Shown here: positions 646-62,563 of the stretch, one piece after another
Layout of the letters: each line of letters begins with the position of its first letter
How positions within the stretch are numbered: position 1 is the stretch's first letter
Assembly: GCA_017478025.1 (NCBI GenBank)
Contig: JAFVGZ010000027.1
Location: 186,001 to 250,000, forward strand
DNA from: Prevotella sp.
GTDB taxonomy: Bacteria > Bacteroidota > Bacteroidia > Bacteroidales > Bacteroidaceae
Length of the DNA: 64,000 nucleotides
Direction of reading: 5' to 3'
Notes under the pieces: model-generated
The model's input: the letters and a program-made list of their open reading frames with translations, nothing else
Told to the model about the DNA's origin: nothing
Database searches by the model: none
Position numbers and translations under genes: made by a program

Positions 646-782
646 CCCCCTTCCAAAGGGGAAGGAGACCGGAAATACTGGAAATACTGGAAATACCGGA
701 GACCCCGGAACATCCGGAATATCCAGAATATCCGGAATATCCGGAATATCCGGAGAAACCGGAAACTCCGGAAACTCCGTAA
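646..782. repeat. Composite SG element, copy A (3' end of upstream gene)
   Basis: This begins immediately after the stop codon at 645. It has a CCTTCC/GGAAGG inverted repeat, then GAGACCGGAA, then roughly a dozen 9-bp units of the form CCGGAAnnn or CCGGAnnnn. Compared with the other copies in the window it is in reverse orientation (hairpin first, then minisatellite). It fills most of the gap before leuS. Confidence 0.85.
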
Positions 783-857
783 AAACCGCTATCAATAAAG
801 AGATAAGTGTCAAGTGGTCTGCCACTGTGTGACAGACATAAAATAATAATAACTCCA

Positions 858-3880: not shown

Positions 3881-5146
3881 TTACCCCTTTGAGGTAACCG
3901 CCTTTACTATTTCTTCTGGTGTTATGCTGTTCAGGCAGCGGTAGTCACTGTAGCGGCACGGCTTGCTGCCGTATATAGAGCACGGACGGCATGGCAGGTC
4001 TTTCTGTACACAGTCCTCTGCCCTCTGTCCCCAACCGAGGAAGCCGGCATAAGGGTGTGTAGCACCCCATACACTCACCACGCGCGTCCCAACGAGCGAC
4101 GCCAGGTGCATATTGGCAGAATCCATAGACAGCATAACATCAAGCCCGCGCATCAGCTCCAGCTCAGCGGCGAGACCGGAAGTCCGGCCTACAGCCCCCA
4201 CCCGGCCTCCCCCTGGGGGGAGGGGACGGGAAGCACCGGAATAACTGGAAAGACCGGAATGTCCGGAAACTCCGGAATATCCGGAATATCCGGAAAAACC
4301 GGAACCACCGTCTTTACTGATTACATCCCTCGCCAGCTCCACATTACTATATTTCTGCGCCCATGCGCGCATAATGTCCTCCTCTTCGCCTTTGCCTCCG
4401 AAGAGCACCACGCGCCCACTGTGGCTCAGCATCTCCACGACCTGCTCCATCTTCTCTATGGGGTAAATCTTTCCCTTATGCGCCGCAAACGGGGCAACGC
4501 CAAAGGCAGTCCGACCTGCAGCCCACTCCCGGCCTCCCCCTGAGGGGAGGTGAACGGAATCAACGGAATAACTGGAAAGACCGGAATGTCCGGAAACTCC
4601 GGAATATCCGGAAAAACCGGAATATCCGGAAAAACCGGAATCACTGGAAAAACCGGAATCACTGGAAAGACCGGAAAAACCGGAACCGCCGGATAATCCG
4701 GAGAAATCTCCCCCCCACAGGGCCTCCGCATAGTTCTCGAAGCTTGTCGGCAACTGCCTGAGGACCTTCTTTCCGGGCTCTGCCGTCAGCTGTCGGCGGT
4801 CGCTGCGGTGCTTGTCTATGACACGCACCTCATAGCCTCTGAGCCTGAAATACTGCCTCAGCACCTTCGTGCGAAGCACGTCATGAGCATCCACGATGCG
4901 GTCAAAGTGCATCGCATGTAGTTCCTTAAAAAGTCTGAAAAGCCCCATAATGCCTCTGTATTGCGTTTTCACGGCTCTGCCGAGGAAACTTACGTTCGGG
5001 GCAATATCCTCGAACAGCGGGGCGCAAAACGGCACTGAGAGCACCGTCACGCTATCCTCCGGATGCTGCAGTGCATACTCTCTAACCACCGGCGACAGCA
5101 TCGCTACATCGCCTAAGGCACTGAAACGCATTACGAGAACGTTCAT
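3881..5146 (-). CDS. GT9-family glycosyltransferase (heptosyltransferase-like) with two repeat insertions
   Basis: Related to ADP-heptose:LPS heptosyltransferases (WaaC/WaaF, GT9), which add sugars to lipopolysaccharide core at the inner membrane. The N-terminus [17 protein letters not shown] is the GT9 first strand and glycine loop. The C-terminal half has the family block [21 protein letters not shown] and a Cys-rich tail ([17 protein letters not shown]). The coding sequence is interrupted in frame by two Ser/Gly-rich repeat segments: about residues 147-212, between the two Rossmann domains, and about 278-323, just before the donor-binding block. Without them the protein would be about 310-320 aa, close to a compact GT9 enzyme. 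It lies 64 bp downstream of a DUF4254 gene on the same strand, a common Bacteroidota pairing. Sugar donor and acceptor cannot be read from sequence. Confidence 0.88.
4178..4315. repeat. Composite SG element, copy B, inside the GT9 gene
   Basis: On the + strand it reads tail (CAGCCCCCACCCGG), hairpin CCTCCCC...GGGGAGG, then CCGGAA-type 9-bp units. Read from the gene (minus strand) it encodes about 45 residues of the form [17 protein letters not shown] followed by [10 protein letters not shown]. It is in frame, without stops, and sits in a loop between conserved GT9 blocks. Confidence 0.9.
4511..4708. repeat. Composite SG element, copy C, inside the GT9 gene
   Basis: Same orientation as copy B and longer, with about 16 units of 9 bp. 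It encodes about 66 residues rich in SGFSGYSG and ends in [13 protein letters not shown], the translation of the CCTCCCCCTGAGGGGAGG hairpin and tail. It lies between the N- and C-terminal Rossmann domains of the glycosyltransferase. Confidence 0.9.
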
Positions 5147-9428: not shown

Positions 9429-11051
9429 TTATTCCACAAAGCTCTCCAGTTTCTTCAGGCAATAGTCCTTCACGTCCTGCCATTTGTAGTAGCAGCCCTC
9501 CACAGGTGTCAGCTGCGGCATGACGGTCTCTTCCTCATTAAGGAGGATCTTCACGAGGATGGGCTTATCAGGCTCTCCAGTCTTCCCGGATTTTCTGGAT
9601 ACTCCGGTCTTTCCGGATACTCCGGACTTTCCGGTCTTTCCAGATACTCCGGACATTCCGGTCTCCTCCCCCTTGGGGGAGGCTGGGAGGGGGCTTGAGG
9701 CTGGGAGGGGGCTCCTTTTATAAAACACCATCTGTATATTGCTTCCCATTGGGAATATCCTGTTGTCGTGCCATCCGTTGGCGGCGAGGTCTTCAAGGTC
9801 GGCGTACTGCTCTCCGTAGCCGTTGAGATTCAGGAAGCAGACAGTAGGCATCACCACCACCTCATGTCCGAACCGCAGCGAAGCCGCCAATGGCCTCTTC
9901 ACACTCTCTCCAAGCAAACCCTCATCTCTCATCTCTCTTCCCTCAGCCACCGTGCCCGCCAGTTCTTTGCCAAGCAAAGCGTCACCGCTCGGCACTTGTG
10001 ACGCTTTGCTCTGCAAAGAAGTGCCGAGCGCTCCGGCGGGGTCAGCAGCCAACAGCGCCAGACACGAGTCCGCCGTATTGATGATATTCTTTATCAGGTT
10101 TCTCTGGAAGAACACCTGTCTGCCTCCTGTCAGTGGCGATGGGCCATGCGTCACATACCAGCCGGCGTTCTTTATCAGCCAGATGTTATACAGCTCCTCA
10201 TCGGTGAAGTATTCCGTCATCGGCATACGGTGGCGCAGCTCCGTGCTCTGCATGTCCGCCACCACCTTCCATATATCCACGGCAGCAAACTTCCATGGGT
10301 CTCTCACCGCCTCGCGCCAGTAGCTCTCTTCCCTGAAGAGCGAGTTCATCAGGCGCTGCGGGTCATAGTGGCGCTTCTCAAAGGCTGTCTGCAGGCTGTC
10401 TGCCGCCGAACCCTTTGGTCGGCGCTCCTTACGCAGCTGCTCGTCGTTGTAGTTCAGGTAGTATTTATCAGCCTCCGAAGCGTCCATCGCTATCTCCAAC
10501 TGAGGGTTCAGCCCCTTCAGCGTCATCGTCTCATTGGCCATCGACAGTATGCAGCGTATCACGGGCGTGCTGCGGGCGTCTATCTTCTTGTTGCCGCTGA
10601 AGATCTCAGGGAAGTTCCTATACATCCTCTCCGCTATCTGCTGGTGCTGCTGTGCCCCGCGCAGTGTCAGCTCGTCGGTGTGACCGCGTGCGTCACGGCG
10701 TATGGTGTCTAACTGTCCTAACAGTCGGCAGCCCAACGGTGTCAGTATACCCTTCTCGTCTGCCTCCTTCAGCACCTCATAGGGATGCTCATAGACGTTC
10801 TTGCCTATCAGATAGCGCGACCCATGCCTACCGTAATGACTCATATAGCACGCCTCATACCCTGCCGGAGCAGGCGTCAGCACACCGCTCGGAGACTGGT
10901 AGGCCGTATAGTTATCGCCATACAACTCACGGTTTACCTTCATCTCACCCTCCAGCGCGCGCACATCAAACACCCCAGGACCACAAACACTCTGAGCCGC
11001 CGCCGACATACCGCACAGCAGCAACAACGAAACAAACATCTTTCTGTACAT
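9429..11051 (-). CDS. Histidine-type acid phosphatase (phytase/MINPP-like) with repeat insertions
   Basis: Exported histidine phosphatase of branch 2, a family that removes phosphate from inositol phosphates and other esters. The signal peptide is MYRKMFVSLLLLCGMSAAAQ. The catalytic RHG motif is in SHYGRHGSRY (about residues 72-81), and the proton-donor region is LRFGHEVVVMPTVCFLNLNG, where the usual HD/HAE is HEV. Two in-frame insertions interrupt the distal half: about 337-370 (SLQSKASQVPSGDALLGKE, from the interlocked-palindrome element) and about 443-495 (SPLPASPKGEETGMSGVSGK..., from the SG element). Both fall in surface-loop positions, before and after the HE motif. Unbroken by stops at 540 aa, it is longer than related enzymes. 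Promoter at 11138-11168. The substrate is not determined by sequence. Confidence 0.85.
   Translation of the reverse strand: MYRKMFVSLLLLCGMSAAAQSVCGPGVFDVRALEGEMKVNRELYGDNYTAYQSPSGVLTPAPAGYEACYMSHYGRHGSRYLIGKNVYEHPYEVLKEADEKGILTPLGCRLLGQLDTIRRDARGHTDELTLRGAQQHQQIAERMYRNFPEIFSGNKKIDARSTPVIRCILSMANETMTLKGLNPQLEIAMDASEADKYYLNYNDEQLRKERRPKGSAADSLQTAFEKRHYDPQRLMNSLFREESYWREAVRDPWKFAAVDIWKVVADMQSTELRHRMPMTEYFTDEELYNIWLIKNAGWYVTHGPSPLTGGRQVFFQRNLIKNIINTADSCLALLAADPAGALGTSLQSKASQVPSGDALLGKELAGTVAEGREMRDEGLLGESVKRPLAASLRFGHEVVVMPTVCFLNLNGYGEQYADLEDLAANGWHDNRIFPMGSNIQMVFYKRSPLPASSPLPASPKGEETGMSGVSGKTGKSGVSGKTGVSRKSGKTGEPDKPILVKILLNEEETVMPQLTPVEGCYYKWQDVKDYCLKKLESFVE
9566..9722. repeat. Composite SG element, copy D, inside the phosphatase gene
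   Basis: Ten or more 9-bp units (CTCCGGTCTTTCCGGATA type), then TCCGGTCTCC, the hairpin TCCCCCTTGGGGGAGG and a doubled GAGGCTGGGAGGGGGCT tail. It is inverted relative to the gene and is read as SPLPASPKGEETG followed by SG/TG repeats. Confidence 0.9.
9973..10030. repeat. Interlocked-palindrome element, copy 1
   Basis: Two inverted repeats are interleaved. AGCAAAGCGTCAC (9973-9985) pairs with GTGACGCTTTGCT (9998-10010), and CGCTCGGCACTT (9986-9997) pairs with AAGTGCCGAGCG (10019-10030). This is the topology of an H-type pseudoknot with 13- and 12-bp stems. It lies in frame inside the phosphatase gene. A second full copy is at 23845-23901 and partial ones at 9340 and 41041. Confidence 0.85.
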
Positions 11052-11256: not shown

Positions 11257-11640
11257 TGTGCATAACTCTGTGGAAAACTGCTGTAATAATTTAATCAAAA
11301 ACCCGTTGTTATCCCCAATGGAATGGCCTGTTGTTTCGGTTCGTGGATAACGGAGGGGGTTATTATCCTGTTCAAAACACATTTTCCACCGATGAAATGG
11401 GGGAAAATTGAGGTGTTCTAATAGTAGGTCTTTTACTCGGTAATAGCAGGTCTATTACTCCCTGATAGTAGGTCTTTTACATGGTAATAGTAGGTCTTTT
11501 ACTGCAGGTATCGAGAGGGGTGATTTTTATCCTTTCCAGGGAAGGTTTTCCACTTTTCAACAGTATTTCTTCTTATTCTTATTTTTTTTAAATTTAGAAA
11601 AGAGAAAATAAAAAGAATAAAGGTGTGTGGAAAAGATGAG
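11257..11640. other. Candidate replication origin (DnaA-box-like cluster, AT tract, iteron-like repeats)
   Basis: DnaA-box-like 9-mers (consensus TTATNCACA) occur at 11257-11265 (TGTGCATAA, exact on the minus strand), 11269-11277 (TGTGGAAAA), 11309-11317 (TTATCCCCA), 11342-11350 (CGTGGATAA), 11382-11390 (TTTTCCACC), 11546-11554 (TTTTCCACT) and 11626-11634 (TGTGGAAAA). An AT-rich tract follows at about 11560-11620. The region contains four 22-bp direct repeats and lies between divergent genes; most genes for about 7 kb left and 10 kb right run away from it. No dnaA or rep gene is nearby, which is normal for Bacteroidota origins. This is inference from motifs only. Confidence 0.45.
11419..11506. 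repeat. Four 22-bp direct repeats with TAGGTCTTTTAC core
   Basis: Exact 22-bp period without spacers: units at 11419, 11441, 11463 and 11485. The core GTAGGTCTTTTAC is conserved and the last four bases vary. The same unit recurs as two direct copies plus one inverted at 39694-39755. Confidence 0.85.
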
Positions 11641-39660: not shown

Positions 39661-39755
39661 CTCTGCCATTTTGGCAGAGTAACTTTTGCGTTGTAAAAGT
39701 AGGTCTTTTAGGCGGTAATAGTAGGTCTTTTACCCGGTAAAAGACCTACTATTGC
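39661..39755. repeat. Hairpin plus second cluster of the 22-bp unit
   Basis: A perfect hairpin CTCTGCCA, TTT, TGGCAGAG at 39661-39679 is followed by two direct 22-bp units (39694, 39716) and one inverted (39738-39755), so GTAGGTCTTTTAC...GTAAAAGACCTAC forms a palindrome centred near 39736. The core is identical to that at 11419-11506. Confidence 0.85.
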
Positions 39756-39854
39756 AATGCACTGATAATCAAGGTGTTTGATGGTGCCATTTTGTCAGTT
39801 GGCACTTTGTGGGGTGGCAGGCGGTTGGTGGGTATTCGGTGCGGTGGGGAGGGC

Positions 39855-40034
39855 GGATTATCCGGAGTTTCCGGCAGTTCCGGATTATCCGGATGATCCG
39901 GATAATCTGGTTTCTCCGGTCTTTCCGGTTTTTCCGGATTATCCGGTTTTCTCCGGATATTCTGGAATTTCCGGCGGTTCCGGGCTCCTCCCCCAGGGGG
40001 GAGGTTGGGAAGGGGCTTGAGGTTGGGAGGGGGC
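39855..40034. repeat. Composite SG element, copy E (abuts 3' end of the SusA-like gene)
   Basis: About 13 units of 9 bp (TTATCCGGA/TTTCCGG type), then TCCGGGCTCC, the hairpin CTCCCCCAGGGGGGAGG, and two GGCTTGAGGTTGGGA-type tails. It ends about 10 bp before the stop codon of the gene at 40044. Confidence 0.9.
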
Positions 40035-40043
40035 TGTAGGCGG

Positions 40044-42611
40044 TCAGAACTCTAAGAGGAGAGTCTGTCGGGGTGAGAGCTTGATGTCCTGTGTGATGTC
40101 GTAGCTGCGGCCAGAGGTTACTTCACGAGCGGAGATGGGGGCAGGGGCTGCGGTGCATGATGCAGGGGCAGTGGCGGTTGAGGCTTCGGCGGTTGAGGCA
40201 GTGGCTGATGCGGTTGAGGCCGGGGCTGAAGAGGCTGCTGCTGGCCATAGCTCGCGGTAGCGGTCAGCGTGGAAGGTCTGTGGCTTGTCGGTGCCGTTGA
40301 GGATGAGGAGGACAGATGGGGAGGGGTGGTGCGGATTGTTCGGAGTTCCCGGGATTGACGGTTTTCCCGGATTTCCCTGCGGAGAACCGCAGGGCACGGT
40401 GGCTGCTGGGCAGGTTGCTGCTGCTGAGCAGGTTGCTGCTGCTGGGCAGGTGGCTGCTGCTGGGCAGGTAGCTGCTGCTGGGCATTTGGCTGCTGCTGGG
40501 CAGGCGGGGGTGTGGGCTATGACATAGACTCCTTCGTAGGGGAGGAATTGTGTCTGGCGGCCTTCGGTGACGGTGGTGTTTGTCTGGCGCCAGTGGAGGA
40601 TTGCGCTGAGCCAGTTGAACATGTTGTTCTCCTCGCTGGTGCGGCCCTCTTTGGTGAAGGCGTTGCGGGTGTCACCGGGGAAGCCGCCGGGGAAGTCCTG
40701 TCTGACGTTGCCGTCGGTGATGGCCTTGGTGCCGTTCATCATGATCTCTGTGCCGTAGTAGATCTGCGGTATGCGGTTGATGGTGAGCAGCAGTGCCAGT
40801 CCCTGCTTGAGCATCAGGGAGTCCTTTCCGTCTCCGAGGAAGCGGTCGGTGTCGTGGTTGTCAAGGAAGGCGAGGACGCTCCGCGGGTTGGGGTAGAGGT
40901 AGTCATAGACGAAGGTGTTATAGACGCGGTTCATGCCTCCTCCCCATTGGCCGGTCTCCTCGTGCTTGGCGGTGTTCAGGCGGTCAAAGAAGGTGAAGTC
41001 CATGACGGTGTTGAGGTAGGTGTTGGGCTTTCCCTGCGGAGCGCTCGGCACTTGTGACGCTTTGCTCAGCAAAGAACCGCAGGGCACAGCGGCTGCTGAG
41101 CAGGGGGCAGAACTGCAGGGCACAGCGGCTGCTGAGCATGGAGCAGAACCGCAGGGCGCGGTGGCTGTTGAGCATGGAGCAGATACGCATGGGGCGGTGG
41201 CAGGGGTAGAAGGGTTTCCGTATAGTCCGGAGTTTCCGGTTTTTCCGGAATATCCGGGATTACCCGCAGTTCCGGTCTCCTCCCCCTTGGGGGAGGCTGG
41301 GAGGGGGCTGCTGGGGAGGGGGCTGCTGGAGAGGGGGCTGCTCATCATATATTGCGGGGTGATGCGTGAGTCTTTCTGCAGGGCTGCGGTGAAGGCGGGC
41401 TCTGTGACCCATGACTCTCCCACGACGTTGAAGTTGGGGTATTCCTCGTTCAGCTCTTTCATCCATGATGCCATGCCGGTGGCGTCGGCGTAAGGGTAGG
41501 TGTCCATTCTGATGCCGTCGATGCCGATGGTTTCTATCCACCAGATAGAGTTCTGTATGAGGTATCGCATGACGTGCGTATTGCGCTGGTTGAGGTCGGG
41601 CATGGAGGGCACGAACCATCCATCCACGGTCTCACGCAGGTCTATGCGCGATGCGTAGGGGTCCATGACGGTTGACAGTTTATAGTTGGTCTGCAGGTAG
41701 AGCTTGTTGATGCCTCCGGCGTATGTGGTGGATTGTCCTTCTGCCGTTGTTGCCGGTGCCTCCTTAGGCGCGCTGAGCCATTCAGGTGCGTTGAGCCAGT
41801 CGTGTGACGGCAGATCACTGAGCCATGGGTGCTCCATGCCGCAGTGGTTGAAAATCATGTCCATGACAACCTTCAGCCCTTTCTGGTGTGCCTCGTCGCA
41901 GAGGCGGCGGTACTCGTCGTTGGTACCGAAGCGTGGATCTACCTTATAATAGTCCGTGGTGGCATAGCCGTGATATGTGGAGCTGCCGTTGTGGTCGGGT
42001 GAGTCATTCTCCAGTACGGGTGTGAGCCATAGCGCCGTCACGCCGAGGTCGCAGAAATAGTCCAGGTGCTGGCGTATGCCCTCCAGGTTGCCGCCGTGCC
42101 TCAGGGAAGGCTGTGAGCGGTCCACGGCGTATTTTGTCTTCATCACCACGCCGCCACTCTTCTTACCCTTCGCTGTGCGTTCGGGCTGTCCCTGTGCAAA
42201 GCGGTCGGGCATGAGCATATAGAGCACGTCCTTGTTGGAGAAGCCTATGCGCTCCTCGCCTGCCTTCTCACGTTTCTTCAGCGGGTAGCGTATGGTGGTG
42301 GACTTACCGCGCGAGCCCTTTGGGAAGGTGATACGCAGCTGCATCTCGCCCGGCTGTGCCCCGCTGAGGTTGAGATAGACGAGCAGGTAGTTGGGTGAGT
42401 CGAGCCGCACAAGCGAGTCGATGGTGACGCCAGGATAGTCGGTGCTGACGCTGGCTTCGCGTATGCCGTTGCCGGTGAGCATCAGCTGCAGGGTGGGGTT
42501 CTTCATGCCTGCGTACCAGTTGGCCGGTTCGATGCGTGTGACTGTGGAGGCCGCATGTGATGCCATGACGGACAGGCAAAGGGTAATGATGAGTGATGTA
42601 AGCTGTTTCAT
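40044..42611 (-). CDS. GH13 SusA-like periplasmic neopullulanase, expanded by repeat insertions
   Basis: Hydrolyses maltooligosaccharides and pullulan fragments in the periplasm. Signal peptide MKQLTSLIITLCLSVMASHA, an N-terminal neopullulanase/cyclomaltodextrinase-type domain, then the GH13 barrel: substrate Asp region GLKVVMDMIFNHCG, nucleophile in GIDGIRMDTY (about 369), acid/base in VVGESWV (about 397), stabiliser in FLDNHDTD (about 585). At 855 aa it is about 240 aa longer than SusA. Most of the excess is repeat-derived: about 422-528 (SPLPASPKGEETGTAGNPG..., then SAPCSAAAVPCSSAPC...), inside the barrel between acid/base and stabiliser; about 704-760 (CPAAATCPAAATCPAAATC and TVPCGSPQG); and about 788-828 (AST/ASA-rich). 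All catalytic residues remain. It is the last gene of the starch locus. Confidence 0.9.
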   Translation of the reverse strand: MKQLTSLIITLCLSVMASHAASTVTRIEPANWYAGMKNPTLQLMLTGNGIREASVSTDYPGVTIDSLVRLDSPNYLLVYLNLSGAQPGEMQLRITFPKGSRGKSTTIRYPLKKREKAGEERIGFSNKDVLYMLMPDRFAQGQPERTAKGKKSGGVVMKTKYAVDRSQPSLRHGGNLEGIRQHLDYFCDLGVTALWLTPVLENDSPDHNGSSTYHGYATTDYYKVDPRFGTNDEYRRLCDEAHQKGLKVVMDMIFNHCGMEHPWLSDLPSHDWLNAPEWLSAPKEAPATTAEGQSTTYAGGINKLYLQTNYKLSTVMDPYASRIDLRETVDGWFVPSMPDLNQRNTHVMRYLIQNSIWWIETIGIDGIRMDTYPYADATGMASWMKELNEEYPNFNVVGESWVTEPAFTAALQKDSRITPQYMMSSPLSSSPLPSSPLPASPKGEETGTAGNPGYSGKTGNSGLYGNPSTPATAPCVSAPCSTATAPCGSAPCSAAAVPCSSAPCSAAAVPCGSLLSKASQVPSAPQGKPNTYLNTVMDFTFFDRLNTAKHEETGQWGGGMNRVYNTFVYDYLYPNPRSVLAFLDNHDTDRFLGDGKDSLMLKQGLALLLTINRIPQIYYGTEIMMNGTKAITDGNVRQDFPGGFPGDTRNAFTKEGRTSEENNMFNWLSAILHWRQTNTTVTEGRQTQFLPYEGVYVIAHTPACPAAAKCPAAATCPAAATCPAAATCSAAATCPAATVPCGSPQGNPGKPSIPGTPNNPHHPSPSVLLILNGTDKPQTFHADRYRELWPAAASSAPASTASATASTAEASTATAPASCTAAPAPISAREVTSGRSYDITQDIKLSPRQTLLLEF
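40128..40260. repeat. Ala/Ser/Thr-coding short repeat in the SusA-like gene
   Basis: Imperfect GCGGTTGAGGC and GCAGTGGC units, encoding about 40 residues of A/S/T near the C-terminal domain. The repeat keeps the frame. Confidence 0.6.
40375..40505. repeat. Palindrome and 18-bp tandem repeat in the SusA-like gene
   Basis: The palindrome CCCTGCGG, AGAA, CCGCAGGG (40375-40394) is followed by GGTGGCTGCTGCTGGGCA-type 18-bp repeats, six or more copies up to about 40505, encoding (C-P-A-A-A-T)n on the minus strand, with a cysteine per unit. Confidence 0.85.
41032..41195. repeat. Nested palindrome and 36-bp tandem repeats in the SusA-like gene
   Basis: The stem CCCTGCGG (41032-41039)/CCGCAGGG (41077-41084) contains in its loop a fragment (CGCTCGGCACTTGTGACGC...) of the interlocked-palindrome element. 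Three degenerate copies of a 36-bp GCAGGGCACAGCGGCTGC-type unit follow to about 41195. Confidence 0.8.
41216..41342. repeat. Composite SG element, copy F, inside the SusA-like gene
   Basis: About six 9-bp units, TCCGGTCTCC, hairpin TCCCCCTTGGGGGAGG, and three GGGAGGGGGCTGCTG-type tails, inverted relative to the gene. Read as SPLPSSPLPASPKGEETG followed by GNPGYSGKTGNSG. Confidence 0.9.
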
Positions 42612-42649: not shown

Positions 42650-42740
42650 CGCATATAATTAAATAACTCGTTAATTTGATAACTCGTTAATTTGTTATTT
42701 CGTTAATTCGTTAATTTGTTAATTTGTTAATTCGTTAATT
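42650..42740. repeat. GTTAATTTGTTAATTCG minisatellite overlapping the pullulanase stop
   Basis: An 8-9-bp AT-rich tandem in the gap between the pullulanase and SusA-like genes. On the minus strand it supplies the last codons and stop of the pullulanase gene (GAA TTA ACG AAT TAA). Confidence 0.8.
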
Positions 42741-45069
42741 CGACCAGTATCTGTGCTGTCTGTGGCGGTATGGTGATATTGCCGCCCTTTGAGCGACGCG
42801 GTGCGTCAGGCGGTGTGGTGTCGCTGCTTGATGTGACGATAAACCACTTGCCGCGTGGTATCTGTTGCTTCACGGCGCGCTGGTTGCTGTTGAGTATCAC
42901 GATGATATTGCTCCATGTGTCGCCTACGGCCTTGCCGTTCAGTTGCCATGCTATGACGTTGCTCTGCTTGGTGGGCAGGAATTTGAGGTACGCCATCACG
43001 GCCTCCGGCGATGTGAGTCGGAATGCGGGGTGTGCCTTACGCATGGCGATGAGGCTCTGTATGTATTGGAACACGTCGTGGTGCTGCGTCTTCAGCGTCC
43101 AGTCAATGGCGTTGATGCTGTCGGGCGAGGCGTATGAGTTGTGCACGCCCTTCTTGTCGCGCATTATCTCGTCGCCGCACCAGATGAACGGCACGCCCTG
43201 CGATGTGAGCACTGCGGTGTATGCCAGCTTCTGCAGCCGTGCGAGCGCGTCGGGGGTAGGGTTGGGTAGAGTCACTTTCAGACGGTCTGCCAGGCACATG
43301 TCATCGTGGCAGGAGACGTAGCTGATCATCTCCGTAGGCTTTGCCGCCCATGCCTCGTGGCTGTAGTTCACGCGGCTGAAGTCCACGTCGGGGTGGAATA
43401 TGGCGCCCACGATGCCGAACTTCACGCTCTCCTCGTTGCCGCTCTTTCCTATGAGGAACGCTCCCTCACGGTCATCCTGCCATCCGCCGCGCAGTCCGTC
43501 GCGCATCTCGTCGCCAAAGGCTGCTATGCCTCCCAACTTTGCGGTGTTTGCCTTCATTGCCAGCTGGTCGCTGGGCAGCGCGGGGCTCTCTGCCGCCCAT
43601 CCCTCGCCATAGATGACCACGTTGGGGTCTATGGCCTGCGCCGCCTCGCGTATGGCGTTCATGGTCTCTATGTCGTGGATGCCCATGAGGTCAAAGCGGA
43701 AGCCGTCGATGTGGTATTCGCGCATCCAGTAGAGCACCGACTCCACCATGAACTTGCGCATCATGGGGCGCTCGCTGGCTGTCTCGTTGCCGCAGCCGGA
43801 GCCATTGGCGGGGATAGCGGAGGGGTAGGTTTCTCCGGATAATCCGGCAGTTCCGGATATTTCGGAGGTTCCGGTTTCTCCGGTCTTTCCGGAGTTTCCG
43901 GGATTACCGGCAGTTCCGGTCTCCTCCCCTATGGGGGAGGTTGGGAGGGGGCTTTTATATCGGAAGAAATACCCCGGTGCTGTGAGGTGGAAAGGGCTGC
44001 GCTCCAGGTCGAAGACATGGTTATAGACCACGTCCATGACTACTCGCAGGCCGGCGTTGTGCATGGCCATCACCATCTCCTTGAATTCGCGGATGCGTGT
44101 CTCTGGTGTGGCGGCATCGGTGGAGTAGCTGCCTTCGGGCACGTTATAGTTCACGGGGTCGTAGCCCCAGTTGTAGCTGACCTGCGCCGTGCGACCACCG
44201 CCTCCGATGGCGAGGCCTGTGCGCTCGTCGATGGAGCCGAAATCGTATGACGGCAGGAGGTGTACGTGTGTGACACCCAGCTCGCGGAGATGGTCCAGGC
44301 CGGTGGAGAGACCCGTCGGAGAGCCGACGGGCACGGTGGCTGGGGCTTCGGATTTTCCAGATTTTCCGGATTTTCCGGGGTTACCGGCAGTTCCAGTCTC
44401 CTCCTCCTTGGGGGAGGCTGAGAGGGGGCTGGCTGTTGTGCCGCTTTCTGTGAGTGCCAGGAACTTTCCCTTGTTGGTGATGCCGCTGGAGGGGTGCACG
44501 GAGAAGTCGCGGTGGTGCATCTCATAAATGATGGCGTTGCGCTGTCCGCCTGTGGATGGTGATATGTCGATATCCCATCCTACGGGGTTGGTGGTGCGGA
44601 GGTTGGTGATATATGCGCGCTGACCGTTCATGCTGACCGCCTTGGCAAAGATGCCCGGCGACTCGCTGAGCCATTGCCCTGCTGCCTTCACGCGGAAGGT
44701 GTAGTAGGTGCCTTTGAGGTCGCGGCCCTCAACGGTGGCAGTCCATGTGCCGTCAGGCTGCGGGGAGAGGGGGAGCACCTGGGGGGCGGTGGGCCCCGTC
44801 GGAGAGCCGACGGGCACGGTGGCAGTTCCGGATATTCCGGGGGTTCCGGTTTCTCCGGTCTTTCCGGATATTCCGGAGGCTGCTCCGTAGAGGATGACTT
44901 GTACGGAGTCGGCTTTGGGGCTCCAAAGGCAGAAGCGCGTGGCGGCGGGGGTGTATGTCATTTCTTCTATGGGCCCTGTGGGGACGGGCCATGACTGCAT
45001 GTCATCGGTGTTGGAGGCACTAAGGGACATCGTAGCTGCAAGCATAAGAAAAGCAAGGGGTTGTCTCAT
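42727..45069 (-). CDS. pulA: Type I pullulanase (GH13) with three repeat insertions
   Basis: Debranches starch by cutting alpha-1,6 links. N-terminal signal peptide MRQPLAFLMLAATMSLSA, an N-terminal beta domain (about 30-140), then the catalytic barrel: the pullulanase signature YNWGYDP (about 301), nucleophile in GFRFDLMG (about 458), acid/base in VIYGEGW (about 486), stabiliser in SCHDD (about 590). At 780 aa, three insertions account for roughly 130 residues: about 61-91 (GISGKTGETGTPGISG then TVPVGSPTGP), about 210-252 (SPLSASPKEEETGTAGNPG then TVPVGSPTGL) and about 368-425 (SPLPTSPIGEETGTAGNPG...). They fall in loops, two of them in the barrel before the nucleophile. The C-terminal codons come from an AT-rich repeat. 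Confidence 0.92.
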   Translation of the reverse strand: MRQPLAFLMLAATMSLSASNTDDMQSWPVPTGPIEEMTYTPAATRFCLWSPKADSVQVILYGAASGISGKTGETGTPGISGTATVPVGSPTGPTAPQVLPLSPQPDGTWTATVEGRDLKGTYYTFRVKAAGQWLSESPGIFAKAVSMNGQRAYITNLRTTNPVGWDIDISPSTGGQRNAIIYEMHHRDFSVHPSSGITNKGKFLALTESGTTASPLSASPKEEETGTAGNPGKSGKSGKSEAPATVPVGSPTGLSTGLDHLRELGVTHVHLLPSYDFGSIDERTGLAIGGGGRTAQVSYNWGYDPVNYNVPEGSYSTDAATPETRIREFKEMVMAMHNAGLRVVMDVVYNHVFDLERSPFHLTAPGYFFRYKSPLPTSPIGEETGTAGNPGNSGKTGETGTSEISGTAGLSGETYPSAIPANGSGCGNETASERPMMRKFMVESVLYWMREYHIDGFRFDLMGIHDIETMNAIREAAQAIDPNVVIYGEGWAAESPALPSDQLAMKANTAKLGGIAAFGDEMRDGLRGGWQDDREGAFLIGKSGNEESVKFGIVGAIFHPDVDFSRVNYSHEAWAAKPTEMISYVSCHDDMCLADRLKVTLPNPTPDALARLQKLAYTAVLTSQGVPFIWCGDEIMRDKKGVHNSYASPDSINAIDWTLKTQHHDVFQYIQSLIAMRKAHPAFRLTSPEAVMAYLKFLPTKQSNVIAWQLNGKAVGDTWSNIIVILNSNQRAVKQQIPRGKWFIVTSSSDTTPPDAPRRSKGGNITIPPQTAQILVELTN
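43828..43955. repeat. Composite SG element, copy G, inside pullulanase
   Basis: About ten 9-bp units (TCCGGATATTTCGGAGG type), TCCGGTCTCC, hairpin CCTCCCCTATGGGGGAGG, GTTGGGAGGGGGCT tail. Inverted relative to the gene. Confidence 0.9.
44312..44432. repeat. Palindrome followed by composite SG element, copy H, inside pullulanase
   Basis: CCCGTCGG (44312-44319), AGAG, CCGACGGG (44324-44331), then CACGGTGGCTGG, then from 44345 five 9-bp units, hairpin TCCTCCTTGGGGGAGG and a GCTGAGAGGGGGCT tail. The two repeat families are joined directly. Confidence 0.88.
44795..44885. repeat. Palindrome joined to SG minisatellite, copy I, inside pullulanase
   Basis: CCCGTCGG, AGAG, CCGACGGG (44795-44814) and CACGGTGGC run straight into six 9-bp units (44822-44880), without the GC-rich hairpin. 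Read as GISGKTGETGTPGISG then TVPVGSPTGP. Confidence 0.85.
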
Positions 45070-53129: not shown

Positions 53130-53280
53130 TCGAATTAACGAATTAACGAATTAACGAATTATCAAATTAGCAAATTAACGAATTAACAAATTAATAAATC
53201 AACGTTGTCATTATCGCATGATAAAGTTTATGAGTAATCATAATTCGTCAACTTGTTAATTTGTTAATTCGTTAATTAGG
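53130..53280. repeat. GAATTAACGAATTAAC minisatellite (gap before the amylase gene)
   Basis: Head-to-tail 8-9-bp units at 53130-53200, and in inverse at 53245-53278 (GTTAATTTGTTAATTCG), so the gap between the susF-like and amylase genes can form a long AT-rich hairpin. Confidence 0.75.
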
Positions 53281-61069: not shown

Positions 61070-61222
61070 GAAAGCACCCCTCACGACCCCCTCACGCCCC
61101 CTTCCCAGCCTCCCCCTGAGGGGAGGAGCCCGGAAAATCCAGAATCTCCGGATAGTCCGGATTATCCGGAAAAACCGAATAATCCGGCCTCTCCGGCCTC
61201 TCCGGAGACTCCGGTCTCTCCG
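61070..61222. repeat. Composite SG element, copy J (abuts 3' end of the PL22 gene)
   Basis: Reverse orientation: tail CCCCCTTCCCAG, hairpin CCTCCCCCTGAGGGGAGG, then about twelve CCGGANNNN units to 61222, 6 bp before the stop codon of the gene at 61229. Confidence 0.9.
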
Positions 61223-61228
61223 GCTCAT

Positions 61229-62563
61229 TTACAGCTTTTTATATCGCTGCACCAGCTCTTCCGGCAGGCGCACTATGCAGATATTCATCGACTTTCCGTC
61301 TTCTGACAGCATTGCCGACTGTATCTCTATCTCCGTGCCGTCAGGCTTGAAGGTGGGATGCACATGGTCGCGCGCTGTGGTCTTGTGGCCTGCCGTCAGC
61401 AGTATGCGCTCACCCGTGTGGCGGTCTATGAGCCACAGCTCGCGGGCAAAGTCATCGCCTGCCACCCAATAGCCGTCCTGCGAGCCTGCCACATGCCAGA
61501 AGTTATCGCCTGGCACCTGTCCCTCCAGCGTCAGCTCGCGGGTGCGCATATTCACTACGGCAATGCCCGTAGCATACTCCTTAGTCCCCGACGGACCCCA
61601 GTCATCCGACGTGGCAAAGGACTCCAGACCCTCGATGGCCTTCTGCTCACCCTTGTTGATGGGCCGGTGGCCGATGATGGCTATCACCATCTCGTCAGCG
61701 CTGATCACTGCCTCATGCGTTACCCAGTCGTGCTCCGTCTCGCGGTAGATGGGTCTGAGGTTCGTGCCGTCGGCATTCACCATCCACGTGCGCTGCGGAG
61801 CCTTGCCGCCCGTCTCCCAGCAGAAGATGACTTCCCCCGGATGCCAGGGGTTGCCCTGTATGTGGCCCACCTTGAAATGCACCGCCACCACAGGCTCTGC
61901 CTTGCCCGTCGCAAGGTCCATCTTGCCGATGCCGCTGGGCCCGGCGCCCATCTTGCGAGGGCCGAAGTTGGGTGCTATCTGCTCCGTTATAGGGTATTTG
62001 CGCGCAAACTCCTTGTCAAGACGGAAATAAACAAACTCCTCGCTGCCGTCGAGAGCCATGTCACCCTCGCTGCACATCTCAATGGGGATGGTGCCGCAGA
62101 TGCGTTCGTAGGCTGTCTTCTTCTTCACCTTGCCCGCTTCGGAGTCTGCAAGGAGCTGCCCCAGGTTCACCTCCACCACGGCCATGCCCGTGCGCTTCCC
62201 ATTCTTGTCCCTCACATCGCGCATGTGATAGAGGTTCATGGACTTACGTGCCACGCAGAGCATGCCCGAGAAGCCGCCCTCCGTGACCTGCACAATGGTG
62301 CCTGTCTCTTCGTTGACGGCCATCGCCTCGCCCTTCACGCGGTCCGAACGGAAGATAACCCACTTACCGTCGGACGTCCATTGGTTGTGCGTCTGATAGA
62401 TTTTCGAATCGCCCGTGCCGCTCTTGCTGGTGAGGAACACCAGCTCCACGCCGGTCTTGGGGTCTGTGATGACCTTGCGCTCAGAAGGGAAACGCGTTCC
62501 CATCTGCGCCATCGCGGGGATGGCAAGAAATGCCGAAAGGCAGAGTGTGAAAAGCTGTTTCAT
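61229..62563 (-). CDS. PL22 oligogalacturonate lyase
   Basis: A 444-aa exported protein, signal peptide MKQLFTLCLSAFLAIPAMAQ. A seven-bladed propeller family that beta-eliminates digalacturonate and short pectin fragments. The family blocks THNQWTSDGKWVIFRSDR, IGKMDLATGKAEPVV, VGHIQGNPWHPGEVIFCWET, GGKAPQRTWMV and THEAVISADEMVIAI are present, with conserved histidines that in PL22 bind the metal (Mn). The presence of a signal peptide suggests a periplasmic enzyme, although many PL22 enzymes are cytoplasmic. Faces away from, but lies next to, the starch locus, and is followed 325 bp later by a GH105 gene of the same pathway. Confidence 0.9.
   Translation of the reverse strand: MKQLFTLCLSAFLAIPAMAQMGTRFPSERKVITDPKTGVELVFLTSKSGTGDSKIYQTHNQWTSDGKWVIFRSDRVKGEAMAVNEETGTIVQVTEGGFSGMLCVARKSMNLYHMRDVRDKNGKRTGMAVVEVNLGQLLADSEAGKVKKKTAYERICGTIPIEMCSEGDMALDGSEEFVYFRLDKEFARKYPITEQIAPNFGPRKMGAGPSGIGKMDLATGKAEPVVAVHFKVGHIQGNPWHPGEVIFCWETGGKAPQRTWMVNADGTNLRPIYRETEHDWVTHEAVISADEMVIAIIGHRPINKGEQKAIEGLESFATSDDWGPSGTKEYATGIAVVNMRTRELTLEGQVPGDNFWHVAGSQDGYWVAGDDFARELWLIDRHTGERILLTAGHKTTARDHVHPTFKPDGTEIEIQSAMLSEDGKSMNICIVRLPEELVQRYKKL

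Follow-up and report, generated by a model that had tools for sequence, protein, structure and literature searches.

According to a review (PMC10969869), Rickettsia palindromic elements (RPE) are short dispersed repeats that lie in-frame in unrelated metabolic genes, apparently tolerated where the fold allows; each is some 150 bp long and encodes a conserved peptide. The 9-bp tandem arrays studied here resemble RPE in that they also lie in-frame within unrelated core genes and are missing in orthologues, as seen in alignments of MutS and GT9. They differ from RPE, as described there, in being variable in length, read in two frames and in both orientations, and found in another phylum. No wholly palindromic unit of ~150 bp with one conserved peptide, the criterion for RPE, was found in the 9-bp arrays. 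By analogy, the arrays would work like RPE, their nearest parallel, and appear to be a variant of the same kind of phenomenon, one that is not assigned to the RPE family.

Other described repeats are more distant. The BrickBuilt MITE of Porphyromonas gingivalis, which belongs to the Bacteroidales, holds tandem repeats, and the heptameric STRR of cyanobacteria are short-unit tandem arrays dispersed in the genome. The unit and the host of STRR are other than those of the 9-bp arrays. BrickBuilt is reported to be strictly intergenic (PMC10969869), whereas the 9-bp arrays also lie inside genes. A MITE is marked by terminal inverted repeats and a target-site duplication; the unit of tail and array has one constant end, its other end being the variable array, and by eye no duplication was seen. 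PARCEL is a mobile translated tandem repeat (PMC2996958), but it encodes an amphipathic motif of 25 residues, in ORFs that have no assigned function, whereas the 9-bp arrays form loops in core enzymes. No description of such arrays was found in the titles and abstract openings of literature on Prevotella and Bacteroidales repeats, REPs and in-frame repeat insertions, which does not establish their absence from print.

The window, the whole stretch of DNA that was analysed, is 64 kb long (G000:C41:186001-250000) and comes from a 2.93-Mb draft genome of 43 contigs that is 84.7% complete. The sequence TCCGGANNNTCCGGA has 72 matches in the window at up to two mismatches, against 1.87 expected from shuffles. 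With three exact CCGG as the array criterion, and a weak candidate at 40340-40379 excluded, 10 array clusters were counted, of which 7 are in genes and 3 are intergenic. The in-gene arrays are read as Ser-Gly (SG frame), and most adjoin a REP-like tail. The host genes and the arrays are listed below.

3881-5146, minus strand: glycosyltransferase family 9 (GT9) gene, 421 aa, two arrays
9429-11051, minus strand: histidine phosphatase gene, 540 aa, His_Phos_2 domain, one array
40044-42611, minus strand: cyclomaltodextrinase/alpha-amylase (SusA-like) gene, 855 aa, from domain matches, one array and other repeats
42727-45069, minus strand: pullulanase-type gene, 780 aa, alpha-amylase, pulA_all-beta and Pullul_strch_C domains, three arrays
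669-789, plus strand: intergenic array, between a gene end at 645 and a leucyl-tRNA-synthetase-like ORF opening at 807
4193-4311, plus strand: tail and array (4227-4311), antisense to the GT9 gene, SG frame (GFSGYSG reading)
4520-4701, plus strand: tail and array (4563-4701), antisense to the GT9 gene, SG frame
9577-9713, minus strand: array (9577-9661) and partly doubled tail, sense in the histidine phosphatase gene, SG frame
39853-40035, minus strand: intergenic array and doubled tail, just beyond the stop of 40044-42611
41218-41309, minus strand: array (41218-41275) and tail, sense in the SusA-like gene, SG frame
43826 to about 43953, minus strand: the copy under study, 9-bp array (43826-43919) and REP-like tail, sense in the pullulanase-type gene, SG frame
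44348-44430, minus strand: array (44348-44396) and tail, sense in the pullulanase-type gene, SG frame
44819-44876, minus strand: array without tail, pullulanase-type gene, SG frame
61096-61223, plus strand: intergenic tail and array, adjoining the stop of 61229-62563

The unit of the dispersed tandem repeat is TCCGGNNNN, and the REP-like unit of ~35 bp is AGCCCCCTCCCAnCCTCCCCCnnnGGGGGAGGAG. This tail adjoins six of the seven in-gene window arrays. Its outer end is constant (AGCCCC), followed by a hairpin (CCTCCCC-GGGGAGG) and then the array; copies of the tail also occur solo and doubled. The copy under study translates as SPLPTSPIGEETGTAGNPGNSGKTGETGTSEISGTAGLSGE. An earlier note, made from the window alone, had read all seven in-CDS copies in the Ser-Gly frame and in both orientations, and the translations of the four genes agree. 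The split in orientation that it described is also present: in GT9 both tail and array run antisense to the gene, whereas every other copy with a tail is in sense orientation. One array, at 44819-44876, lacks a tail. Its labels for the two amylase-type genes were swapped, because the Pfam domain matches place the pullulanase domains in 42727-45069 and identify 40044-42611 as the cyclomaltodextrinase/alpha-amylase, SusA-like gene.

Several other repeats lie in the same proteins. A hairpin repeat read as ATVPVGSPTG follows two arrays of the pullulanase-type gene (44880-44910 and 44310-44345). The SusA-like protein has 18-bp and 36-bp arrays (40392-40504 and 41073-41201) that give Cys- and Ala-rich stretches (CPAAAT...), and it shares with the protein encoded at 9429-11051 the string SKASQVPS, perhaps another translated repeat. 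A collagen-like function was considered from a Gly-X-Y pattern seen by eye and was rejected, as the Pfam matches (1e-5) include no collagen family.

Exact CCGG triples at 9-bp spacing occur at 102 places in the source genome, all of them covered by the stretches examined. With looser neighbours these places yield 27 arrays, 12 in the SG frame, 6 in the Pro-Glu (P-E) frame, none in the Arg (R) frame, and 9 intergenic; one of those scored as intergenic (C1:82944) is probably the P-E tail of a low-scoring gene. Genes were called by our own codon score with a cut-off, and the GT9 frame was assigned as SG by homology to relatives, because the codon score alone missed GT9. Eleven of the 12 SG arrays bear the tail (a tail variant in one of them), nine in sense and two, those of GT9, in antisense orientation, and all 11 in-gene tail-bearing copies are SG. 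The claim that only one frame is used thus holds for the window and for these 11 copies, but not for the six arrays of the same genome that read Pro-Glu.

Of 120 genomes in the genus, 63, among them the source genome, have a threefold TCCGG repeat with at most one mismatch; the count per genome ranges from 1 to about 200, which makes the distribution patchy. A pattern scan of genome contigs gave eight stretches, one from a Prevotellaceae MAG (UBA2718) and seven from unrelated records, these seven being taken as chance matches. The source organism is probably Prevotella. The congener sample comprised 77 stretches from ten genomes around listed places. For G040, G086, G099 and G071 the lists of places are complete at zero mismatches, and for G036, G105, G079, G001, G081 and G027 the arrays are those among the matches listed; one congener stretch (L170) held no array by the array criterion.

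The source genome and the ten congeners together gave 115 arrays among the matches listed: 39 SG in 35 genes, 22 P-E in 20 genes, a single Arg-frame array, and 53 intergenic, with one gene carrying both SG and P-E. The Arg-frame array (G036, L114) covers residues 10-33 of an ORF whose first codon is TTG; since the first Met lies only at about residue 43, the array probably precedes the true start. Six arrays below the cut-off would add three P, two SG and one R, the last in a 115-aa ORF with a score of 0.1. A tail-like motif was found within 70 bases of 9 of the 88 congener arrays among the matches listed. Since the congener arrays are mostly without it, joint movement of tail and array would be a feature of the source genome only.

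The hosts with Pfam matches are diverse. In the source genome they are MnmG, MetH (two arrays), MutS, GT9, the histidine phosphatase, the two amylase-type proteins, UvrA, a GluQ/GltX-type synthetase, a glycosyltransferase, an exonuclease, an OstA-like protein and a TPR protein. Those of the congeners include DNA polymerase III alpha (DnaE), HerA, MutY-type, RlmL-type, BipA, two topoisomerases, UvrB, MetH-type, a DbpA-type helicase, MutS, Mfd/TRCF, UvrD-type, MgsA-type, GH2, GH31, GH94, GyrA-type, ParC-type, FtsH-type (twice) and others. A few host proteins (L106, for example) had no clear Pfam family.

The in-CDS arrays are distributed very unevenly over the three frames. The ratio of 39 SG to 22 P-E to 1 R (n=62, among the matches listed) departs from one third each with p = 2.4e-8, from an expectation weighted by how open each frame is in intergenic arrays with p = 6e-11, and, when counted per gene, with p = 8e-10. 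Arrays in which all three frames are open show the same bias (25 SG, 11 P-E, 1 R; p = 8e-6). These tests assume independent arrays, and the arrays are partly non-independent, with three in one gene and two each in MetH and GT9. Frame use is therefore far from one third each, as the earlier note had expected, but Ser-Gly is not exclusive: P-E accounts for 22 of the 62 in-CDS arrays among the matches listed.

The same note had attributed the choice of frame to an absence of stops, which has the matter backwards. The SG frame of TCCGGANNNT contains a free codon able to be TAA, TAG or TGA, whereas in the perfect consensus a stop is impossible in either of the remaining frames. On the 106 strands of the 53 intergenic arrays among the matches listed, SG was open in 77, P in 96 and R in 100. 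Stop avoidance was rejected as the cause of the frame bias because intergenic strands have SG open less often than either of the other frames. The translated product is a better account than stops, because the Arg frame would carry a charge of about +0.3 to +0.4 per residue. The potential charge per residue is +0.32 to +0.42 in the R frame, 0.01 to 0.05 in SG and -0.15 to -0.22 in P, and in one orientation the R-frame peptides have 47% hydrophobic residues. The proposal of selection on the translated product is supported by the frame counts, though not for Ser-Gly alone.

Orientation is biased as well, and the supposed indifference of the element to orientation was not borne out. The variable bases of the coding strand are purine-rich in 28 of 36 untied SG arrays (p = 0.001) and in 45 of 57 untied SG and P-E in-CDS arrays (p = 1e-5); the purine-rich coding orientation is the more hydrophilic of the two readings. 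As for an element shaped to be harmless, the 9-bp period helps, but one of its frames is strongly basic. That this frame is all but absent from genes points to filtering after insertion, not to harmlessness by design.

Tandem arrays of all kinds were sorted by period in 587 kb of contigs from the source genome. Those with a period divisible by 3 lay in CDS in 60 cases, in intergenic DNA in 25 and at edges in 5, against 18, 87 and 43 for other periods (Fisher p = 7e-14 for period class versus CDS or intergenic location); the CDS in this count include unscored ORFs of at least 120 aa, which adds noise. The 9-bp class alone counted 11 in CDS and 8 intergenic. Arrays of 8 bp (CGAATTAA; window 42664-42742 and 53131-53204) are common, and 0 of 33 lie within CDS in the 587 kb. 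A 22-bp family with the core TAGGTCTTTTAC was also seen (window 11419-11503 and 39693-39743), and of 35 arrays with a period of 22 bp, 32 are intergenic.

Slippage within genes, by which an existing run of Ser-Gly or Pro-Glu codons would have expanded in place, with no dispersal and with a frame that reflects its origin, would fit a unit that is a codon multiple and congener arrays that mostly have no tail. It would also fit the positions of the two classes: among the matches listed, the array ends within 30 residues of the C terminus in 10 of 22 P-E arrays and in 2 of 39 SG arrays (p = 3e-4), so that SG arrays are internal and P-E arrays often terminal. We nevertheless consider slippage unlikely, since 53 of the 115 arrays among the matches listed are intergenic, a single DNA unit is translated in two frames that are unrelated to each other, and 11 in-gene copies of the source genome share a DNA tail outside the array. 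The codons also track the DNA unit and not gene usage. GGA makes up 0.81 of Gly codons in the SG arrays of the source genome and 0.22 in other genes, and the GAA share of Glu codons is 1.0 in SG arrays (n=13) and 0.91 in P arrays (n=23) against 0.27 in genes. The arrays are a DNA-level repeat rather than a codon choice; the shares of TCC and CCG are partly by construction, because CCGG was used to find the arrays.

The tail is REP-like in being a short GC-rich hairpin with one constant end and many intergenic copies, single or doubled, and the unit of tail and array might be a REP moved by a RAYT (Y1 tyrosine) transposase. Tail copies here, however, also lie inside genes, and PF01797 had no match in the source genome, while the control search was positive in 5 of 14 known genomes; with a genome that is 84.7% complete, this absence is weak. 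A GTAG or CGTC tag is reported as the rule for REP ends (PMC3733652), and neither tag was visible by eye in the tail copies. RAYT-driven movement seems quite unlikely on these grounds.

Comparison with orthologues shows the in-gene arrays to be lineage-specific insertions, which translate as Ser-Gly or Pro-Glu with next to none in the Arg frame. In MutS, residues from about 622 to 669 are extra and are missing in 27 of 28 aligned relatives; the closest relative, G001, has a short SGKTGNNGVSEKT at this position. Around the insert, the alignment with E. coli MutS runs to residue 603 and resumes at 608, just before the ATP-binding strand. The second GT9 insert is missing in 23 of 24 aligned relatives, the remaining one being G001; at the first GT9 site all relatives have a variable linker. 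A congener BipA has a 12-residue insert relative to the solved structure 4zcm, and the MnmG array lies between segments aligned to 3cp8.

Both GT9 sites of G001 are occupied by another repeat (SEELRVKSEE ... SLFTLHSSL), a family that is also found in MnmG and UvrA of the source genome. This second, heptameric family is translated both ways, as SEELRVKSEE or NSSLFTLHSSL, at the following sites.

L001:12777-15116: MnmG
L008:7440-10889: UvrA
C1:50169-57017: further site of the heptameric family
L057: GT9 of G001

The UvrA protein (L008:7440-10889) is rich in inserts, with GDVGVLARDKK several times, a solo tail read as SPLPTSPLGEETETTG, heptads and a P-E array.

That different repeat families sit at the same GT9 sites might suggest that the inserts behave like introns or are bypassed, so that the protein lacks them. 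If they were removed before translation, nothing would constrain their frame, length or orientation; all three are biased, which makes this explanation very improbable. An assembly or binning artefact is scarcely credible, although the genomes are drafts, given arrays in genes of seven further genomes in the SG or P frame and open frames with domain matches on either side in many hosts.

Among the intergenic arrays, 15 of the 53 among the matches listed have coding-like flanks on both sides, on one strand and within 70 bases. In 14 of these the upstream gene ends ahead of the array or within it, and the downstream ORF has a start beyond it; the fifteenth array (G086, L152) is less clear on its downstream side. 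No broken gene was found among the 53 by codon score and nearby frame, a limited test that would miss decayed genes, and this agrees with the earlier note, which had counted gene-breaking copies as evidence against its reading. Three variant-tail intergenic arrays (L005:3484, 5083 and 6055) have TAA after GAGAAC or GAGAGC, and a copy in the GluQ-type gene (L004:1-240) has TAC in place of this TAA.

Judged from sequence, the arrays are probably a dispersed tandem repeat, in the source genome often with a REP-like unit, that is filtered by selection at the protein level. The 9-bp repeat would spread across the genome, in the source genome often joined to the REP-like unit, and its insertion would favour no frame or orientation. 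Copies that add a strongly basic or hydrophobic stretch would then be lost through purifying selection at the protein level, and what survives would be neutral SG loops in the interior of enzymes and, often at C-termini, acidic P-E stretches. Some of the C-terminal P-E tails may not be insertions but common low-complexity sequence; FtsH-type tails occur in two congeners.

In-frame repeats in core genes were hitherto known mainly from Rickettsia. The present arrays, with many copies in several species, allow a comparison of frame, orientation, period and product in which the intergenic copies are a neutral yardstick, and protein-level filtering of inserted DNA therefore becomes countable. The arrays also show where MutS, MetH, BipA and other proteins tolerate insertions, and they carry a caution for annotators, namely that array-bearing proteins are not broken. 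A broader and more tentative possibility is that short tandem repeats of several families, together with protein-level selection, might give a steady supply of disordered linkers in the loops of essential enzymes, with unrelated repeats re-using permissive sites, neutral Ser-Gly stretches placed internally and acidic Pro-Glu stretches at the ends. If so, the genus would be a natural experiment on where core proteins tolerate insertions, and it might even exploit this supply.
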